Virus record (IMG/VR): IMGVR_UViG_3300050821_017097
Location: 1 to 28,174 of that record
DNA length: 28,174 bases
Direction: 5' to 3' (one strand)
From: a virus
The position numbers and the translations under genes are program-made. Position 1 is the first letter of the stretch; each line of letters begins with the position of its first letter. Below the pieces are notes generated by a model, which saw only the letters and a list, made by a program, of their open reading frames with translations, was not told the origin of the DNA and did not search any database. Below are positions 6,337 to 17,881 of the stretch, piece after piece.

Positions 6337-6558
6337 CTAATGTTTGGCTTCCACTTTCACCCGCTCCCGTTCACCATCGGGTTTGGCCTCGGCTGGCTCT
6401 GCTATGGGATCTTCGCCTTCTTCCACCGGCGGCGGAAAATCGGCAAGCTCTAGGAGTAGCAGTTCGAAGAGTCGCTCCTGCAATAGGTGTTCGAAGTCAG
6501 ACGGACGTTCCGCCTGATTCAGCTCTCCGACAGTTCCAGAGTTAATCGCTTGTGTCAT
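6337..6558 (-). CDS. Small acidic hypothetical protein
   Basis: 73 residues starting MTQAINSGTVGEL. The middle (SDFEHLLQERLFELLLLELAD) is a strong amphipathic/leucine helix; the tail is acidic with Pro/Glu (PPPVEEGEDPIAEPAEAKPD). The frame is open to an ATG at 6657, but that stretch contains an inverted repeat and low-complexity codons with no ribosome site, whereas AAGG precedes the ATG at 6558. It follows the glycosyltransferase gene. Unknown family; a helical protein-protein adapter is conceivable. Confidence 0.5.
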   Translation of the reverse strand: MTQAINSGTVGELNQAERPSDFEHLLQERLFELLLLELADFPPPVEEGEDPIAEPAEAKPDGERERVKVEAKH

Positions 6559-6608
6559 AGACCTTGCAGAGCGTAGCCGACCCTCGCCTCTCTGCGATTC
6601 CCCTTCTA

Positions 6609-6636
6609 ACGGCGGGCTTACCACAGTTTCCGCCGT
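6609..6636 (-). terminator. Hairpin after the glycosyltransferase gene
   Basis: ACGGCGG (6609-6615) and CCGCCGT (6630-6636) are perfect 7-bp inverted repeats, 9 of 10 if the flanks are included, with a 14-base loop. In the minus-strand transcript it begins 24 bases past the glycosyltransferase stop. No U-run follows. The hairpin argues that 6559-6659 is untranslated. Confidence 0.45.
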
Positions 6637-6659
6637 AGGAAATCCCCGCGCCGCCATTG

Positions 6660-7754
6660 TTAGGAAGCCACTTCCCAGCGATGGAAGCCGGGCGGATTCA
6701 GCTTGTCAGTGTAAGGCGGTAAATCGCTCAACCCGAGTTCGCGGCCCCAACTGCGCGCGCCGGTCACGTCATGTCTCACGAGGGAGGCATAGCCATCGCG
6801 CGCCGCATGACGATCATGCAAGACCCGGATGGCCGTCTCGGCGATATCGGTCACTTCGTCGCCGTGAGCGATCCAGTGCTCCGGTACCCAATCGATCGCA
6901 TCGGACACCACGGAAGGGACGCCCATCGCGGCTCCATCGGCGGTGACCATGTTGAAGGATTCGGTATAGCTGGGTTGTAATAAAAGGTGCATTTGGGCGA
7001 CGAGCCGGCGGAAATCCGGCCACCCGCTCCAGCCGTTGTAATGCAGCGATGCGCCGGGCATTCCGGCGAACAATTCGGTGATGGATTTCAGGATCGTGGG
7101 AACGCCGGTTTCGACGCGCCCAGCCGAGATCCAAAATTCAAGCGGGCGCCGCAATTCGCGGGATACTTGCAGGGCGGCGGCGGCGGCCGACACCATGTTT
7201 TTGAGAGGCCGCGGCGCTCCGAACGCGCCGATCCGCAGCGTTACGCCCGGTTGGTGGTGCCAGCAGTGCTCCGGCGGCGTGTGGGAATCAAGGTAGTAAC
7301 AATTCGGCAGATAGGCGCAGTCCGCGCCGAAGCAGGCATGGACCCACTCGACGAACCGCTTGCTATTCCCGGCGACGTGAAAGTTATGAGTGCCGATGGC
7401 CAGATTGATGGCTTCGCGGAAGAGTTTGACGCCATTTGGATCCGCCTGCAGGAAGCCGACATTGGAATGGCAGTTGATGGCGAAGTAGGTGTCGCTGTAT
7501 TCCAAAGCGAGGTGCGCTAGTTCGTTGGTCGGGATCCAGGGCGCGGAGATGATGACATGCGTGCGCGGGGTTTTGTTTAGGGACCGAGCCAGGTCCGCGA
7601 CTGAAACGCACGGCAGCACGTCCACTTTCAGTCCGAGCGAACGGAGCACTTTCTGATTGTTCATGGCCGCAACTCCGAGTCCGATGTGCGACACGTTTTG
7701 ATTTGCGGCGAAATTCTTGTAGATGATGAGGACGCTTGCGTCTCTGGTGAGCAT
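6660..7754 (-). CDS. GT-B fold (GT4-type) glycosyltransferase
   Basis: 364 residues, the normal length for a GT4 enzyme. The family transfers sugar from a nucleotide donor with retention of configuration. The C-terminal donor-binding half is clear: LRIGAFGAPRPLKNM (start of the second Rossmann domain), ASLHYNGWSGW, then LLLQPSYTESFNMVTADGAA-MGVPSVVSD, which carries the E-x7-E-type region. The N-terminal half (VLIIYKNFAANQNVSHIGL) is the acceptor domain. It lies between the AAA+ ATPase and the protease in the head operon. Phage glycosyltransferases may modify phage DNA, virion proteins or host surface polysaccharide; nothing here decides between these. No membrane segment. The start at 7754 has GAAGGAAAG about 11 bases upstream. 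Confidence 0.75.
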   Translation of the reverse strand: MLTRDASVLIIYKNFAANQNVSHIGLGVAAMNNQKVLRSLGLKVDVLPCVSVADLARSLNKTPRTHVIISAPWIPTNELAHLALEYSDTYFAINCHSNVGFLQADPNGVKLFREAINLAIGTHNFHVAGNSKRFVEWVHACFGADCAYLPNCYYLDSHTPPEHCWHHQPGVTLRIGAFGAPRPLKNMVSAAAAALQVSRELRRPLEFWISAGRVETGVPTILKSITELFAGMPGASLHYNGWSGWPDFRRLVAQMHLLLQPSYTESFNMVTADGAAMGVPSVVSDAIDWVPEHWIAHGDEVTDIAETAIRVLHDRHAARDGYASLVRHDVTGARSWGRELGLSDLPPYTDKLNPPGFHRWEVAS

Positions 7755-8021
7755 TTGGGCGGGCGGCTTTCCTTCTGTTGTTTGGTTTTTGTTGGTTAGT
7801 AGTTACGGATGCGGGTGTGAGTGTTCCGGCCGTGCTAAGCACAAAGGCGTTTCTCGATGAGCGAGTGCGCCGCGCGTGCGGGTGATTAAAGGAGCTGGTC
7901 TCGGTCAACCAGCCGAATGGATAAACACAGTAGTCAATTTCGACGTCATCGAATTCGTCCACTTTCGGTCACCTCTGCTCGAAATGGAGCGACCGGTGGA
8001 TGAGGGAATGCGGGAATGAAG
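7755..8021. other. Spacer upstream of the glycosyltransferase, one doubtful reading frame
   Basis: 267 bases between minus-strand genes. A minus-strand frame opens at ATG 7962 (MDEFDDVEIDYCVYPFGWLT) with AGAGGTG about 10 bases upstream, but it runs far into the glycosyltransferase in another frame and turns basic and low-complexity. It may be a short remnant gene or a coding leader. Nothing else was recognised. Confidence 0.3.
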
Positions 8022-9029
8022 TTAGGAGCCTGAAGCGGCGCGGATTTCTCCGGAAAATCGTTGGACGGTGAATTGACCGTCTCTCGCATCGAGCATCACC
8101 AGACTGCCCGGCGAGACCAAACCGCGTTGGGTCATCACGGCGACCGGCCGCAGAAAGTTGCGCTCAACAGTGCGCTTCAACTCGCGAGCCCCGAACTCGA
8201 TGTTGGTCCCGAGGTCGAGCAGCAGCTTGCGGGCCATAGCCGTAACGCCCAGGCGAAACGCCCGCACCCCACGCCGTCTCACAATCAGCCGCCCGGCTTC
8301 GTTCAGGATCTCGGTTAAGATCCAGTCGCAGTGCTCGCGGGTGAGCGGCTGATAGGTAATGGCCGTATCGAGGCGGTTGACGAACGGCGTGCCGAATTTT
8401 TTGCGGAGTTCGTGCAGCGCGATCGCTTTGAGGGTCTTTGGATCCAACGGCTTCACGATGCCAGCTTCGAAGCCAAAATTTGGCCGCAAGGCCCGCATTA
8501 TTTTGTCCTCGGCCAGATTGGAGGTCATGAAGATCAAGCAACGCTCGAAATTGACCTTGGTGTTGTCGCCCAGGCGACACGTGGCTTTATCCAAGATGCC
8601 GAACAGCAGCCGCGAGAGCGCGAGGGAGGCCTTCTCGATCTCATCGAACAGCAGCAAGGAAAGATCGCAGTTTTCCGACGATACGGCGCTGAGGTTGAAC
8701 TGTGTAAGGATCGGCACCGTTTCCCGATGCCCGAGATAGCCGGGCGGCGAACCGATCAGCTTGGCGATTTCATGATCCTGTTGAAGCTCGCCGCAATCGA
8801 CCCGCAACACGTTGCGGTTGCTGCCATGTAAAATCTCAGCCAGCGCTTCGACGGTATGTGTTTTGCCCGAGCCGCTCGCACCGAGCAACATCGCTACACC
8901 GGCCGGGCGACCTTCCGGAGCCAACCCGCTGAGATGCGCTTCGATAAACGGGATTATCTCTTCGATCGCCTCAGACTGCCCAACCAGCAATTCGCCCAAC
9001 TGATCGGCGAGGCTGGTTTCCTCGAACAT
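8022..9029 (-). CDS. Clp/Hsp100 D2-type AAA+ ATPase
   Basis: 335 residues, a single AAA+ module of the ClpA/ClpB second-domain type. It has VGQSEAIEEI (box II, residues 16-25), Walker A GASGSGKT (50-57), the pore loop PPGYLG (95-100), Walker B LLLFDE (125-130), sensor-1 TSN (169-171), an arginine finger in PFVNRLD, and sensor-2 GARELKR. Family members form hexamers that thread or remodel proteins using ATP. There is no N-domain, no middle coiled-coil domain and no IGF/L loop for ClpP, so it is probably a remodelling ATPase rather than part of a protease. It starts one base after the preceding stop (TGAATG) in the portal-to-protease stretch. A role in head assembly or in disturbing host proteins is inferred. 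Confidence 0.8.
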   Translation of the reverse strand: MFEETSLADQLGELLVGQSEAIEEIIPFIEAHLSGLAPEGRPAGVAMLLGASGSGKTHTVEALAEILHGSNRNVLRVDCGELQQDHEIAKLIGSPPGYLGHRETVPILTQFNLSAVSSENCDLSLLLFDEIEKASLALSRLLFGILDKATCRLGDNTKVNFERCLIFMTSNLAEDKIMRALRPNFGFEAGIVKPLDPKTLKAIALHELRKKFGTPFVNRLDTAITYQPLTREHCDWILTEILNEAGRLIVRRRGVRAFRLGVTAMARKLLLDLGTNIEFGARELKRTVERNFLRPVAVMTQRGLVSPGSLVMLDARDGQFTVQRFSGEIRAASGS

Positions 9030-9245
9030 TCAATTCAACCCCAGCCACACCCGGAAGCCAAAATCGCGGTTGAAGACGGCGAAGTAGGAAAAGCGGAATT
9101 GCCGGGCCAGGTTGTCACGGATCTGTTGCTCCATGGCGCGCCGGGCCGCCAGCTCCTGGATGGAGACGAAATCCACCGTGCGGCTGCCACCGGCCTTGTT
9201 GCGGCGAGCACTGGCCGTGCGAACGCGGGGAGGTTTTTCGTTCAT
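9030..9245 (-). CDS. Small basic linker protein between portal and AAA+ gene
   Basis: 71 residues from ATG 9245, or 75 from ATG 9257, which overlaps the portal stop (ATGA) and would be translationally coupled. The N-terminus is basic and disordered (MNEKPPRVRTASARRNKAGG). The middle, VSIQELAARRAMEQQIRDNL, is helical and the end is aromatic (FRFSYFAVFNRDFGFRVWLG). Unknown family. Tight packing between portal and the ATPase suggests it works with one of them, for example as an adapter, but nothing shows this directly. Confidence 0.5.
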   Translation of the reverse strand: MNEKPPRVRTASARRNKAGGSRTVDFVSIQELAARRAMEQQIRDNLARQFRFSYFAVFNRDFGFRVWLGLN

Positions 9246-9253
9246 TGGTCCGA

Positions 9254-11626
9254 TCATTCGATGTCAACTGCCGTCAGAGAACACTTGCAGCGAGGGTGTG
9301 CGGGTGGGGCGATGTCTCCGCTTGGGTACGGATCGCCTAATGGAACCGGATCAGCCTCCGAATTCTTGAGGCACTCATCGCATGGACCGTCGGCACTGAC
9401 TGTCCACTGGGTTGTTTTCACGTTGCCCAGTTTCTTCCACACATCCATAGTGCCGAGCGACTGAGCACGGGCAATTTCGGTAGCGGCTATGGTGAGCGCC
9501 CGGCTATCCGAGAACGCGCCGGCCTGCCTGATTGCTTCCGCCAGGTCCTCGACCTTAGTTTCTTCGACGAATGCCTTTTCTACCAGGGTACGAATTTCAT
9601 TGCGCGTGGTGTTTGTGATTTGCCACTTGGCGTTGGGGTTGGGAACGAGCTTGCCCCCGCGATACTGCATTCCCACCAGCTCCGCGGCGCGGGCGTGAGC
9701 GAAATCCCGAGCGAGCGGGCTCACTGAGGAAATGAGATCTCCGTCCGTGATTTCCAACTGGCCGATCGCGATATCCGCGCCGGTCGTTGCCGCGCCAAAC
9801 AGAGCTGCCTCGGCGGGCGCCACTAAGTCTGTCCAGCTAATGTCGACCGCCACGTCGATCACTTCTTCTGGCGTCGGTGGCTTCTTGGTTTCGTCCGCCT
9901 TCACAATTTCGTGGCCGGCGAACAGCTTCACGACCCGCTCGGCCGAACCGTGGCCAGCCGTCTTTAGAAAGTCGCGTACTGCAGTATGCAGTACATCAAC
10001 GTTGTGCTGCGCAATCGCTTCCTCGTGCGTCTCAATAGTCAGTCTTTTTTTTTTACGCAGACCTTTCTCGATCGACTCGGCGGTGACAGTGTCAGGCCAA
10101 ACGACATTGACTGGCGGCCCGGTCAGTGCCTTCCTGGGCGCTTCTTCGGTATTGCCTCCGACTGGCGGCGGCGTGGCCGGCGTCTTCTTCTCGCCCTCTT
10201 CGCCTTCGTCCTCGTCGCCTGGCTGCGCGTGCGTCTCCGCATGGGCCTCCAGCGCTTTCTGGGTATTGGCGTTGGTAATCGCCTGTTGACCCAGCGGCAC
10301 AAAGCCCGTGCCAGTGGTGATGCCGAGTACGCTCGCTTCCGGGTCGGAACTCGGATCATCCCCTTTGTTCTCACGGATCTCGTTGCGGGTATTGATGCCG
10401 CCGTTGATGTAAATGATGTCAGTCTGCGCTTGCTTGAGAATGTCCGACTCGCGCTTTGACTGGAAGGTGAACTCAATGTCGGTGTCGCCGGCCTTGCGCT
10501 GGATGATGTAGTTGATGGTGTCTACGACCCAGGAGCAGATCGCTTGCACGCCCTGCTCATCGGACGAATCCTGGCTTTGCGTGGCCGTGGCCCGATTCAT
10601 CATTTTGGTGAATTCCATCGGGCTCATGCGGAACGCGTAACAAACAAGGCGCGCGAACCATTCGTCGGCGTCGTCTTTCAACGCATCCGCCTTGGTGAAG
10701 TGCAGGCGTTGGACGCCCTTATCGTCGCCGGGGATGAACCAAATGCGCCGCCGCGCTGCCAGATTGCCGGCGAGCGATTGATCGAACCAGCTTTGGAACT
10801 TGCGAACGTTGTCTTCGGTCACGTTGCCCGGCATCGTGTAGAGCGCTTCGGGCACGTTCCCCTCGGTGTAGAAATTCAGCTTGAAGCGATCGCGCCGCAA
10901 GATGATGTTGAGAGTGAGCAGGATTTGTTCGACCGGACCGCAGCCGTAGAGTTTGCGTGCGCGCACGTTGCGCGGGCGATATACGATATCGTCCGTTGTC
11001 AGATCGACGGCCGGCTGGCCGTACAGAATTTGCTGATACGCCCGTTGCGGCGGTTGTGGCGTGAAACCAAAGTCATCGATCACGCGGTGGATCGTCTGCC
11101 CGTCGATGACGCGCAGCGCCCCGATGGTTTGGCGCCGGGTCCGCTGCAGCAGGATCGTTGGCGCATCGGTGACAAAGACGTCTTCGAGCAACATCCGTAG
11201 GAAATCCGCCCAGCAGTAATCGGGATTGGGCCACGAAAGAAAGGCGGTCCAGTATTGGACCTTCAAGTTGTTTTTCTGCCGCGCCAGGCGCTTCGCCTCG
11301 GTCTCGCCGGGCTGCGCCTTCATGCGGACCTGCCATTGCTTCAGGCAGACTTCATCCTTCAGGGCTTCGATGACAATGCGAACGATGTCGCAGTTGTCGG
11401 CCATGAAGATCAGGTCGGAGAACGAAATCGGTTCGTTGGCGCGCGGCTGGAAGATGATGTTCTGGCCGGGGAGGTATTCGAACTGCCGGATCTGAGTGCC
11501 TGCGGGCGCAGTGGGCCTTAACGGTTCGAGCGGTCCGAACCAGTCCTCGCTGGACACCTGCCGGTTCGGGACGCCGCGCGCTCCTGGCTGCGTCAGCACT
11601 GGCGGTTTTATCAATTGTCCGGCCAT
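9254..11626 (-). CDS. Portal protein fused to Mu F-like head morphogenesis domain
   Basis: 790 residues. Residues about 1-480 are a portal, the dodecameric DNA channel at the head vertex: PISFSDLIFMADNCDIVRIV, DDIVYRPRNVRARKLYGCGP, and QSWFDQSLAGNLAARRRIW are portal-like. A disordered Glu/Pro/Thr linker follows. Residues about 640-790 are a Mu gpF/SPP1 gp7-type domain (TEIARAQSLGTMDVW, then CDECLKNSEADPV and PPAHPRCKCSL, with a probable zinc site). Portal and Mu F are normally separate genes, so this is a fusion; an A10 tract in the linker may also allow the portal alone to be made. The ATG at 11626 is favoured over 11686 because the longer version overlaps no conserved sequence. The leader is A-rich (AAAAACAACCAA). 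Confidence 0.85.
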   Translation of the reverse strand: MAGQLIKPPVLTQPGARGVPNRQVSSEDWFGPLEPLRPTAPAGTQIRQFEYLPGQNIIFQPRANEPISFSDLIFMADNCDIVRIVIEALKDEVCLKQWQVRMKAQPGETEAKRLARQKNNLKVQYWTAFLSWPNPDYCWADFLRMLLEDVFVTDAPTILLQRTRRQTIGALRVIDGQTIHRVIDDFGFTPQPPQRAYQQILYGQPAVDLTTDDIVYRPRNVRARKLYGCGPVEQILLTLNIILRRDRFKLNFYTEGNVPEALYTMPGNVTEDNVRKFQSWFDQSLAGNLAARRRIWFIPGDDKGVQRLHFTKADALKDDADEWFARLVCYAFRMSPMEFTKMMNRATATQSQDSSDEQGVQAICSWVVDTINYIIQRKAGDTDIEFTFQSKRESDILKQAQTDIIYINGGINTRNEIRENKGDDPSSDPEASVLGITTGTGFVPLGQQAITNANTQKALEAHAETHAQPGDEDEGEEGEKKTPATPPPVGGNTEEAPRKALTGPPVNVVWPDTVTAESIEKGLRKKKRLTIETHEEAIAQHNVDVLHTAVRDFLKTAGHGSAERVVKLFAGHEIVKADETKKPPTPEEVIDVAVDISWTDLVAPAEAALFGAATTGADIAIGQLEITDGDLISSVSPLARDFAHARAAELVGMQYRGGKLVPNPNAKWQITNTTRNEIRTLVEKAFVEETKVEDLAEAIRQAGAFSDSRALTIAATEIARAQSLGTMDVWKKLGNVKTTQWTVSADGPCDECLKNSEADPVPLGDPYPSGDIAPPAHPRCKCSLTAVDIE
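10045..10054 (-). other. A10 slippery tract in the portal/Mu F linker
   Basis: The minus strand reads CGT, ten A, then GACTGACTATTGA. In the zero frame this encodes R-K-K-K-R-L-T at about residues 524-530. Gaining one A gives a stop after K-K-K-K-T-D-Y; losing one gives a stop after K-K-K-D. Either slip releases a portal of about 528-532 residues, a normal portal size. Confidence 0.45.
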
Positions 11627-11740
11627 TTGGTTGTTTTTGCTTTCAGGGCTTAAAATCGAAATGTCAGCCGCTGTCCGGGCCGGCACTGGTGAAACAGGGT
11701 GGTTCCTGTTAGCTGGTTTCTTTTTTGGTTAAAAGAAGCG

Positions 11741-14281: not shown

Positions 14282-14530
14282 TCAGGCCTCGGCCGGGAGT
14301 TCGTGGCTGGGCAGTTCGCCGGCCGCTTTGAGAGTGCCGACAGTTCTGTCGATCAAAGCGCTCGCCGCATCCTGCAGCGGAGTAGGCACGTGGGCAAACG
14401 ACGCCATCACGATCTCCTTTTTGACAGCGCCTTTCTTGGCTCCTTTGATCGAGCTGTCGACCGCTTTGATGGCGGCGATGATGTCGGGCGTTGCCTGGAG
14501 CAGCGCCAATACGATTTGCAAAATGTTCAT
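14282..14530 (-). CDS. Small helical phage protein
   Basis: 82 residues starting MNILQIVLALLQATPDIIAA, then IKAVDSSIKGAKKGAVKKEI, a pattern I associate with small phage proteins near lysis genes. The first 20 residues are apolar but carry Pro-Asp, so a membrane span is uncertain. The ATG overlaps the stop of the sigma-factor gene (ATGA) and has GGGAAGGGAAACC before it. Function unknown; a holin-accessory role is possible. Confidence 0.55.
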   Translation of the reverse strand: MNILQIVLALLQATPDIIAAIKAVDSSIKGAKKGAVKKEIVMASFAHVPTPLQDAASALIDRTVGTLKAAGELPSHELPAEA

Positions 14531-15243
14531 GGTTTCCCTTCCCAAAAAAAATGACTGGCTGAGTCCACGCCTCGCCGATGGAAGCGTTCGCGCAATTTGG
14601 CGAGGGCCGCGCTGTGAAGCTGGCAGATGCGGCTTTCTCGCACGCCGAAGAGGAGACCGATTTGCTGCATCGTCATCCCCTGCCGGTAATAGAGTTCTAA
14701 AAGTCTCTGCGTTCGGGGTTTCAGACATCGCTGGAACTTTGAGAGGGTGGCGAGTAACTCCTGATGGGCTGCCCTCTGATCCGCGGCCGGCTCGACCGAA
14801 CGCGCCTCACGATCCAGGACGCCGAATGACGTCGCCGACACGGCCCGGAAAGTGGCCATCAACTTTGACCAGTTATGCGGCGTGATGCCGAGCTTTAGCC
14901 GCAGCTCGTCATCATCGGGCGGCCGTCCCAGCTCGATCGCCAGTTGCGTCCTGGCCGCCTGGATCTGCTTATAGCGCAGCCGCGTATTGCGGCTCGCCCA
15001 ATCAAACCGGCGAATTTCATCGAGCATCGCTCCGCGAATCCGGTATTTCGCGTAAGTGATGAAAGAAGCGGGTCCCCGCGCGGAGAAAGCCGTGTCCGGC
15101 CGGTATTTGTGCGCCGCGCCGACCAAGCCCGTCATGCCGGCATCGAACAGATCGCACCATTCCACATGGATGGGCAGCTTCTGTTGAATGTCCGTAGCAG
15201 CGGCGCGCACGAGGTTTATGTGCGCCTCCTCTATGACAACCAT
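14527..15243 (-). CDS. FliA/WhiG-type RNA polymerase sigma factor
   Basis: 238 residues, the normal size for a group 3 sigma factor. Region 2: HVEWCDLFDAGMTGLVGAAH, then FITYAKYRIRGAMLDEIRRF, the FliA-like RIRGA-x-LDE signature that binds core polymerase and the -10 element. Region 3: QLAIELGRPPDDDELRLKLG. Region 4: PRTQRLLELYYRQGMTMQQI followed by GVRESRICQLHSAALAKLR, the HTH for the -35 element. It lies three genes below a response regulator and is coupled to the next gene (ATGA). Phage sigma factors commonly switch transcription to late genes; its promoter set here is unknown. The start lacks a Shine-Dalgarno. Confidence 0.85.
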   Translation of the reverse strand: MVVIEEAHINLVRAAATDIQQKLPIHVEWCDLFDAGMTGLVGAAHKYRPDTAFSARGPASFITYAKYRIRGAMLDEIRRFDWASRNTRLRYKQIQAARTQLAIELGRPPDDDELRLKLGITPHNWSKLMATFRAVSATSFGVLDREARSVEPAADQRAAHQELLATLSKFQRCLKPRTQRLLELYYRQGMTMQQIGLLFGVRESRICQLHSAALAKLRERFHRRGVDSASHFFWEGKP

Positions 15244-16498: not shown

Positions 16499-17881
16499 TT
16501 AGTTGACTGACCTCTTTGCTCCGAGTCCGAGCATCCGCCTTAAGATCGAAGGCTTCGCGGCGGCCGCCGGCGAGACTAACTCCCAAGCCATGACATTGGG
16601 CGCCGTCTGCGAACACAAGTAGAAGCTCGATTGAGGAGCTTGGGCATCGAGCCGCACATAGACTTTGCCGCCATCGTAGGGCGCGTCGGGCGAGTTTGGC
16701 GCCGGAGGCACAAGGCAGCTTGAGGCCGGGGGAATGCCCAGACCGACGTTCAGCCGGAGCCAGGCCGCTTTGCCGAAATCATTTGCGCCGCCCCAAGGGT
16801 TGGCCGATTTCAGCCTCGGGACTACGCTCGTGACCATATCGCAGACGCCCGGCATCGACACACAATCGAGCGCGCCTGATGGTCCAGTCGTGATGTTGCC
16901 CCAAATGAGATGCGTGCCATCCGTCATCAAATAACCCGGCAAGCCGGTGAGGGCAGGGAGGCTTGAGCCGCCGGTGCCAGTGGTGCCGGTGCCGGGAGCC
17001 CCTTGCGGACCCGCTGGACCTTGCGGACCGGCTGGGCCAGTTGCTCCCTGAGGACCTACCGGACCCTGAGGACCTGCCGCGCCTGGTATCCCGGTGATAC
17101 CAGCAATACCTTGTGGACCCGCCGCGCCTGCGGGACCCGTCGCGCCGTTTAGTCCCGCGATCCCTTGCGGCCCGGGAATGCCTACTGGCCCTGGCGGACC
17201 CGATGGACCGGCTGGGCCCGGAATTCCTTGCGGACCGGCAGGACCTGCGGGACCGGCCGCGCCGCCTGCCGGAAGCGTGAGAGCAAAGGCTTGAATGGCC
17301 TTCGCGATGGCGGTTGAAACCGCTTGTTCGCTGGGTACGTTGGTGTCGACGCCTGGACTGTTCAGAACCGTGGTCAGAGCGATCCCCGCTTCGATCTGTC
17401 GGCCGGGAACGCGCGAATCGCCCCAAAAAACGAAGTGATTGGCGATCGGCGGGTTAGCGTTCGCGGAATCCCAGTAACTGTAATACTGCGAAGTCGCTCC
17501 GTTGCCGCTGCATATCCCGTACTCGGGAGTTGAAAACACCAAGCCGCCTTGCGTCGTTGGACAGGCAGCAGTGGTGATCGGCAAAGTCGGGCCCGGAGGA
17601 CCTTGCGGACCAGTCGGCCCGGCCGCCGGCAGCGGTTGCGTGACCACGGTGATTTGATCGCCGACGGAAAGCGGTCCCACCATTTTGAAAGTGGCCCCGT
17701 ACGTGGTGTAACCGCCGCCCGGCAGCTCCAAAATTCCGTTACGAAAAACAGTGGAGTTGGGCGGAAGCGGCAGTCCCAGACTCAGGAATGCCGTTGGACT
17801 TGTCACGCGGTAAGTCTTGAAGGTCGGCTGCTGCGCAAACGCAGGCAGTAGGCCGAGCAGCAAGAGTAAGAAGCGCGTCAT
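16499..17881 (-). CDS. Secreted collagen-like protein
   Basis: 460 residues. A signal peptide ([18 protein letters not shown]) opens the protein, followed by a beta-rich domain (about 20-85), a first short Gly-X-Y run ([11 protein letters not shown]), and an N-domain to about 200. The main collagen-like tract, residues about 206-302, is built from Gly-X-Y units such as [20 protein letters not shown], which form trimeric rods. A C-terminal domain of about 150 residues may be the knob. Collagen-like rods are common in phage fibres, but fibres lack signal peptides; a secreted or surface protein made during lysogeny is as likely. It is coupled to the gene before it (ATGA). Confidence 0.75.

Follow-up and report, generated by a model that had tools for sequence, protein, structure and literature searches.

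Candidate slip sites at the portal–MuF junction that probably let one viral gene encode both a portal and a portal–MuF fusion

Does a viral gene that joins a portal to a MuF module in one reading frame make the fusion alone, or also a portal free of MuF? The question arises from the window, the whole stretch of viral DNA analyzed here (a 28-kb IMG/VR virus record of 28,174 nucleotides), whose portal–MuF gene carries ten consecutive A on the coding strand where the two modules meet. From comparison with related genes, we consider it probable that this one gene yields both portal alone and portal–MuF through a programmed slip at the junction, with the A10 tract as the window's slip site.

The window gene encodes both modules in a single frame. 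PF04860 and PF04233 each score past the Pfam cut-off, phrog_2662 matches residues 67–806 (E 6e-80), and Foldseek against the PDB confirmed the portal fold. Its features are as follows.

9254..11686, minus strand: portal–MuF fusion coding sequence, 810 codons from GTG 11686 or 790 if translation begins, as is likely, at ATG 11626
10370..11248, minus strand: portal domain PF04860, residues 147–439 (Pfam, E 2.3e-20)
10037..10237, minus strand: disordered linker, residues 484–550, with the tract at its MuF end (AlphaFold2 pLDDT < 50 at 484–535 and 537–550)
10045..10054, minus strand: A10, candidate slip tract, AAA AAA AAA A followed by GA (from sequence and class enrichment)
10039..10041, minus strand: TGA stop of the +1 frame, predicted product ending KKKD after loss of one A
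10032..10037, minus strand: Tyr codon and TGA stop of the −1 frame (TAT TGA), predicted product ending KTDY
9917..10030, minus strand: first long helix of the MuF module, residues 553–590 (AlphaFold2)
9275..9601, minus strand: Mu F domain PF04233, residues 696–804 (Pfam, E 2.1e-7)

The tract lies at the extreme end of the linker, since AlphaFold2 leaves residues 484–550 almost wholly disordered and begins the MuF-side helix at 553. A preliminary description had placed an A10 at this junction, and it is there: ten T on the plus strand at 10045–10054, read on the coding strand from 10054 to 10045 as CGT AAA AAA AAA AGA, with the run beginning in phase 0 at codon 545. The early stops that it expected in both shifted frames are also present, after 4–7 codons. 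One added A or a −1 ribosomal shift leads to RKKKKTDY-stop (TGA 10034–10032), and loss of one A to RKKKD-stop (TGA 10041–10039). Its sizes for the two products, 790 and about 530 residues, agree with translation from ATG 11626, which is codon 21 in the longest open reading frame.

Within the window gene the position of the tract is unusual. No other A/T run in the window is longer than 9; the A10, a run of at least nine A or T inside a coding region, falls at the same exact spot in 0.39% of within-gene synonymous codon shuffles; Lys codons of the gene divide into 14 AAA and 27 AAG. A −1-frame stop equally near arises in 44% of the shuffles and is unremarkable alone.

Candidate slip sites recur at the same place across the wider family. 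The window protein alone, used as query, found no relatives among viral and genome contigs; alignment-based profile searches succeeded, and our counts rest on 132 non-redundant in-frame portal–MuF fusions. As null model we shuffled synonymous codons within each gene, leaving protein and codon use unchanged, in permutation tests that take genes as independent within the limits set on redundancy. Linkers hold 27 runs of at least nine A against 3.1 expected (maximum 7 in 200 shuffles), and the portal and MuF cores of the same 132 fusions hold none. Because a global alignment of the linkers was uninformative, we placed slip sites by their distance to the MuF core. Runs at the site are A6 or A7 in phase 2, or A9 or A10; A8 never occurs among the fusions compared.

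Genes without a long run often carry a different zero-frame heptamer at an equal distance from the MuF core. The canonical −1 heptamers found there are A_AAA_AAR, C_CCT_TTY, G_GGA_AAA and C_CCA_AAA; as codons, A_AAA_AAG gives Lys-Lys, C_CCT_TTT/C Pro-Phe, G_GGA_AAA Gly-Lys and C_CCA_AAA Pro-Lys. In a zone 90–130 codons before the MuF core, picked after viewing these data and fixed beforehand only for the held-out set, 83 of 132 genes carry a canonical heptamer, where 17.0 were expected and the highest of 100 shuffles reached 26. A histogram of heptamer positions has no peak of similar size outside this zone. A stricter set of 107 genes had 68 with a heptamer where 14.8 were expected; for A-type sites the count was 39 (8.3 expected) and for non-A sites 34 (8.1 expected). 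In held-out fusions, with the zone preset, 6 of 16 carried a heptamer against 0.87 expected (maximum 3). The zone lacks a canonical site in 50 of the 132 fusions, and almost no isolated phages have a site of the family type. Together these candidate sites at the portal/MuF junction form a widespread and apparently undescribed set. Beside them, a Neisseria gonorrhoeae DSM 9188 contig (L306) has G_GGA_AAG, and its N. sicca sister (L296) has the non-canonical GGG AAG in the same codons.

The nearest relatives of the window lack the tract, and here the preliminary description, which looked to relatives for conservation of the A-run, fares unevenly. In L008 and L009, the two closest, neither the tract nor its surrounding segment is present, with the L008 portal core 71% identical to that of the window; nearby, L375 (39% identical in its best segment) has a reversed form, described below. 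The AAG-coded Lys that it named as a counter-indication does occur in part: the Brevundimonas phages Polewnik and Strzyga, and contig L042, use AAG AAG. The objection from missing tracts and AAG codons is met by the wider family, where slip sites recur; the window's own subclade has no conserved site. In another near relative, L011 (about 6343–9060), MuF is joined to a long upstream region instead of to the portal; by eye, that region contains ADP-ribosyltransferase-like (YRGYG...SSFSTS) and metallopeptidase-like (HEVAH) stretches.

Could the run be a mere basic patch, with AAA arising by drift or codon use and no second product made? Lys/Arg patches often precede the MuF helix, and L002, L003 and L042 write their Lys pair as AAG AAG. 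Shuffles that preserve the protein nevertheless fall far below the observed counts, other genes have at this position a site that codes for Pro-Phe, Pro-Lys or Gly-Lys, and relatives with a reversed frame require a shift. We therefore regard a simple Lys patch as improbable.

In some relatives the default frame is reversed, so that the portal alone is the in-frame product and the MuF lies in the −1 frame. This polarity is found in L313, L312, L213, L218, L200, L199, L202, L205, L358, L375 and L577. In the first nine, the portal frame stops 4–27 codons past the slip site, and the −1-frame MuF overlaps it by 61–286 nt. A search of the −1 frame for ATG, GTG or TTG before the first conserved MuF motif (PIDRDR-like) found none in ten of the reversed relatives, all but L577; a fusion there would thus need a shift, because no start codon precedes the motif. 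The subclade search placed L375, whose portal ends TQLY-stop, among the contigs closest to the window. L213 and L218 closely resemble each other at the slip site and at the start of MuF, and the L218 portal reading frame is about 180 residues longer.

Polarity changes between close kin. L200 (TCAAAAAAG, A6, reversed) has as its sisters L226 and L240 (TCAAAAAAAG, A7, in frame), and a single A at the slip site is the difference. On a FastTree phylogeny of the portal cores, a quick tree whose forks stay open, we count at least 42 changes of site class and 7 of configuration. Since the default frame flips between relatives, the pair of products appears to be conserved and the default frame not. 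The single base between L226 and L200, and the mutability expected of an A10, would also suit DNA phase variation, in which replication slippage switches MuF off in some phage genomes. Yet A6/A7, CCCTTTT, CCCAAAA and GGGAAAA, which make up roughly half of the sites, are ribosomal slip sites and not long mutable repeats, and most of these short sites come with stimulators. We judge phase variation very improbable.

The tail that a −1 shift would add shows a preference of its own. Of the 90 site-bearing genes, 45 have a tail that ends in Tyr, against 4.5 expected when downstream codons are shuffled (maximum 10 of 300 shuffles; tails of 4 to 53 codons); in the +1 frame, 4 Tyr endings compare with 0.8 expected. 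By class, Tyr endings number 23 of 25 for A6–7 (1.9 expected), 14 of 26 for at least nine A (1.2) and 4 of 8 for GGGAAA (0.2). The CCCTTT class has 0 of 19, six of them ending directly in Phe as a consequence of the coded Asp. Around the Tyr-stop hexamer we found no nucleotide motif other than TAY and the TGA or TAA that comes next. The window's tail, KTDY, would end in Tyr by chance in 8.6% of shuffles. Held-out sites, mostly of non-A classes, showed no Tyr ending (0 of 6), and for that reason we restrict the claim to A-type sites; there, comparison points to selection on the predicted −1 product. Examples of Tyr tails are those of the window (10032–10037), L223, L237, L226 and L143, and the ending is independent of tail length.

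Reversed portals end in the same residue in 8 of 11 cases. Tyr as a general ending of stand-alone portals was considered and ruled out: 9 of 129 end so, the reversed ones being among these 9.

Which enzyme slips appears to depend on the class of site. We scored a Shine–Dalgarno (SD)-like element and a downstream fold against synonymous shuffles in each class. The element peaks 11–13 nt 5' of the slip site, a spacing that resembles that of the dnaX stimulator. Its z score is −6.4 for A6–7, −7.2 for CCCTTT and −4.1 for GGGAAA; fold z scores are −7.9, −3.1 and −3.5 for the same classes and −5.0 for CCCAAA. Sites with at least nine A show no selection for either stimulator (SD z +0.4, fold z +0.5). 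Because they combine an SD-like element with a hairpin, the short heptamers look like dnaX-type ribosomal frameshift signals. At A9/A10 sites, the window included, polymerase slippage is likelier because both are missing, and we infer that the window's A10 acts in this way. The preliminary description had made the same attribution, which the A9/A10 tracts without ribosomal stimulators favor.

An SD-like element might instead serve internal initiation of a separate MuF. Separate MuF genes with their own ATG do exist, in L027/L174, L030, L097 and L130. Against this, the element stands 11–13 nt before the slip site, the ten reversed relatives checked have no ATG, GTG or TTG before the first MuF motif, and the class with at least nine A, window included, has no such element. 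We judge internal initiation very improbable. L027, L030, L097 and L130 had themselves been considered as frameshift cases and were rejected, since their MuF appear to be separate genes with their own starts.

The main rival to polymerase slippage in the window is −1 ribosomal slippage, because A_AAA_AAA sits in the zero frame within the A10; both products would then come from the ribosome here too, as the heptamer-only classes with ribosomal stimulators at the homologous place might suggest. Such stimulators usually, though not in every case, accompany −1 ribosomal frameshifting. The window offers little for a ribosome to respond to: its best anti-SD pairing reaches only −3.0 kcal/mol and its downstream fold is weak (−9.4). 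Nor does the class with at least nine A as a whole show selection for an SD-like element or hairpin, and the absence of A8 beside common A9 and A10 is as expected if the polymerase threshold is nine A. A large fraction of bacterial genomes show signs of selection against slippage once a run reaches nine A (PMC1088944). A ribosomal origin of the window's products is thus possible but doubtful, and we favor the polymerase.

Under polymerase slippage, faithful window transcripts would give the portal–MuF fusion. Transcripts with one added A would end the protein in KKKKTDY-stop, and those that lose one A in KKKD-stop. In relatives with short heptamers, −1 ribosomal frameshifting would do the same work. 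Either way, a programmed slip site at the module junction would give a portal–MuF gene two products, the fusion and a MuF-free portal that ends in a short tail read in the −1 frame. Two products are well supported by comparison, the slip sites appearing selected and the default frame flipped among relatives, and to this extent the earlier proposal that A-run slippage yields a free portal beside the fusion gains ground. The purpose, we infer, would likely be to set the number of MuF-bearing portal subunits in the capsid: with some portal chains freed from MuF by the slip, a twelve-membered ring would not have a MuF domain on every subunit. Mixing of both forms within one dodecamer is speculation. 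It seems to us an even call whether a family-wide switch keeps two portal forms while the type of slippage, slip sequence and default frame drift, with the Tyr of the free portal functional in head assembly.

The nearest parallel is dnaX, where one gene gives full-length tau and truncated gamma. E. coli dnaX uses a −1 ribosomal frameshift at A_AAA_AAG with an upstream SD and a downstream hairpin. As proposed here, an A9 run or a heptamer with SD and hairpin serves the same gene in different lineages. In Thermus thermophilus dnaX the device is A9 transcriptional slippage (PMC1088944). Unlike dnaX, a clamp-loader gene, the gene described here is a viral portal gene that uses further heptamers; some relatives have the opposite default frame, and the predicted truncated product often ends in Tyr.

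Virion genes provide further parallels. The gpG/gpGT gene of lambda and many tailed phages is likewise a virion assembly gene in which a −1 slip at canonical heptamers sets the ratio of products, and the shift lengthens the protein, as it would in our reversed relatives; it is a tail chaperone gene, whereas here portal and MuF are concerned and the shift in the window would truncate. PSA and SPP1 gp17.1/17.1* (PMC6316719), and the A2 major head protein, also place a recoded C-terminal extension on a fraction of a structural protein, but none is a portal, and SPP1 gp17.1 uses +1 at CCCUAA. Long in-frame A-runs that give two length variants are known from other genes, in IS elements with A9 transcriptional slippage (PMC1088944) and in the poly-A tract of Citrobacter tssM (PMC4256274).

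The two modules themselves are familiar. SPP1 has them as separate proteins, portal gp6 and the MuF protein gp7, and portal–MuF fusions of Microbacterium and Arthrobacter phages have been described (PMC7302621); that of Arthrobacter phage Sonali is annotated as such. The literature consulted describes no recoding for SPP1 gp6/gp7 or for these fusions, whereas here one gene would yield both forms. The transcriptional slippage surveys searched name no phage portal, and our searches of open-access full texts turned up no account of recoding where portal meets MuF. The type of device is known from dnaX, gpG/gpGT and IS elements, but the same searches gave no description of it in a portal gene, of reversed polarity or of a product ending in Tyr.

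Should the two-product reading hold, the gene itself encodes, in this family, how a twelve-fold portal comes to carry one or a few MuF-like copies, and the portal joins the virion parts whose stoichiometry phages control through recoding. Polymerase and ribosome slippage apparently share one job at one position, which makes a natural comparison, and the Tyr-ended tail hints at an additional contact of the free portal. Current annotation of portal–MuF genes gives the fusion alone; many portal genes in databases would then be short of one product, or would seem broken while intact.

Elsewhere among the portals collected, L377 and several of L400–L448 form a distant group with a separate MuF reading frame, mostly overlapping in the −1 frame, and with no canonical slip site; these portals share a C-terminal WYAERYL or LAKAYL. 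In the window, two reading frames downstream of the portal–MuF gene, 8022–9029 (minus strand) encodes an AAA+ protein with AAA_2 and ClpB D2-small domains (phrog_4871, ATP-dependent protease). Also on the minus strand are a phage-encoded Sigma-70-like factor with regions 2 and 4 (14527–15243) and a tail fibre-like reading frame with collagen triple-helix repeats (16499–17881).
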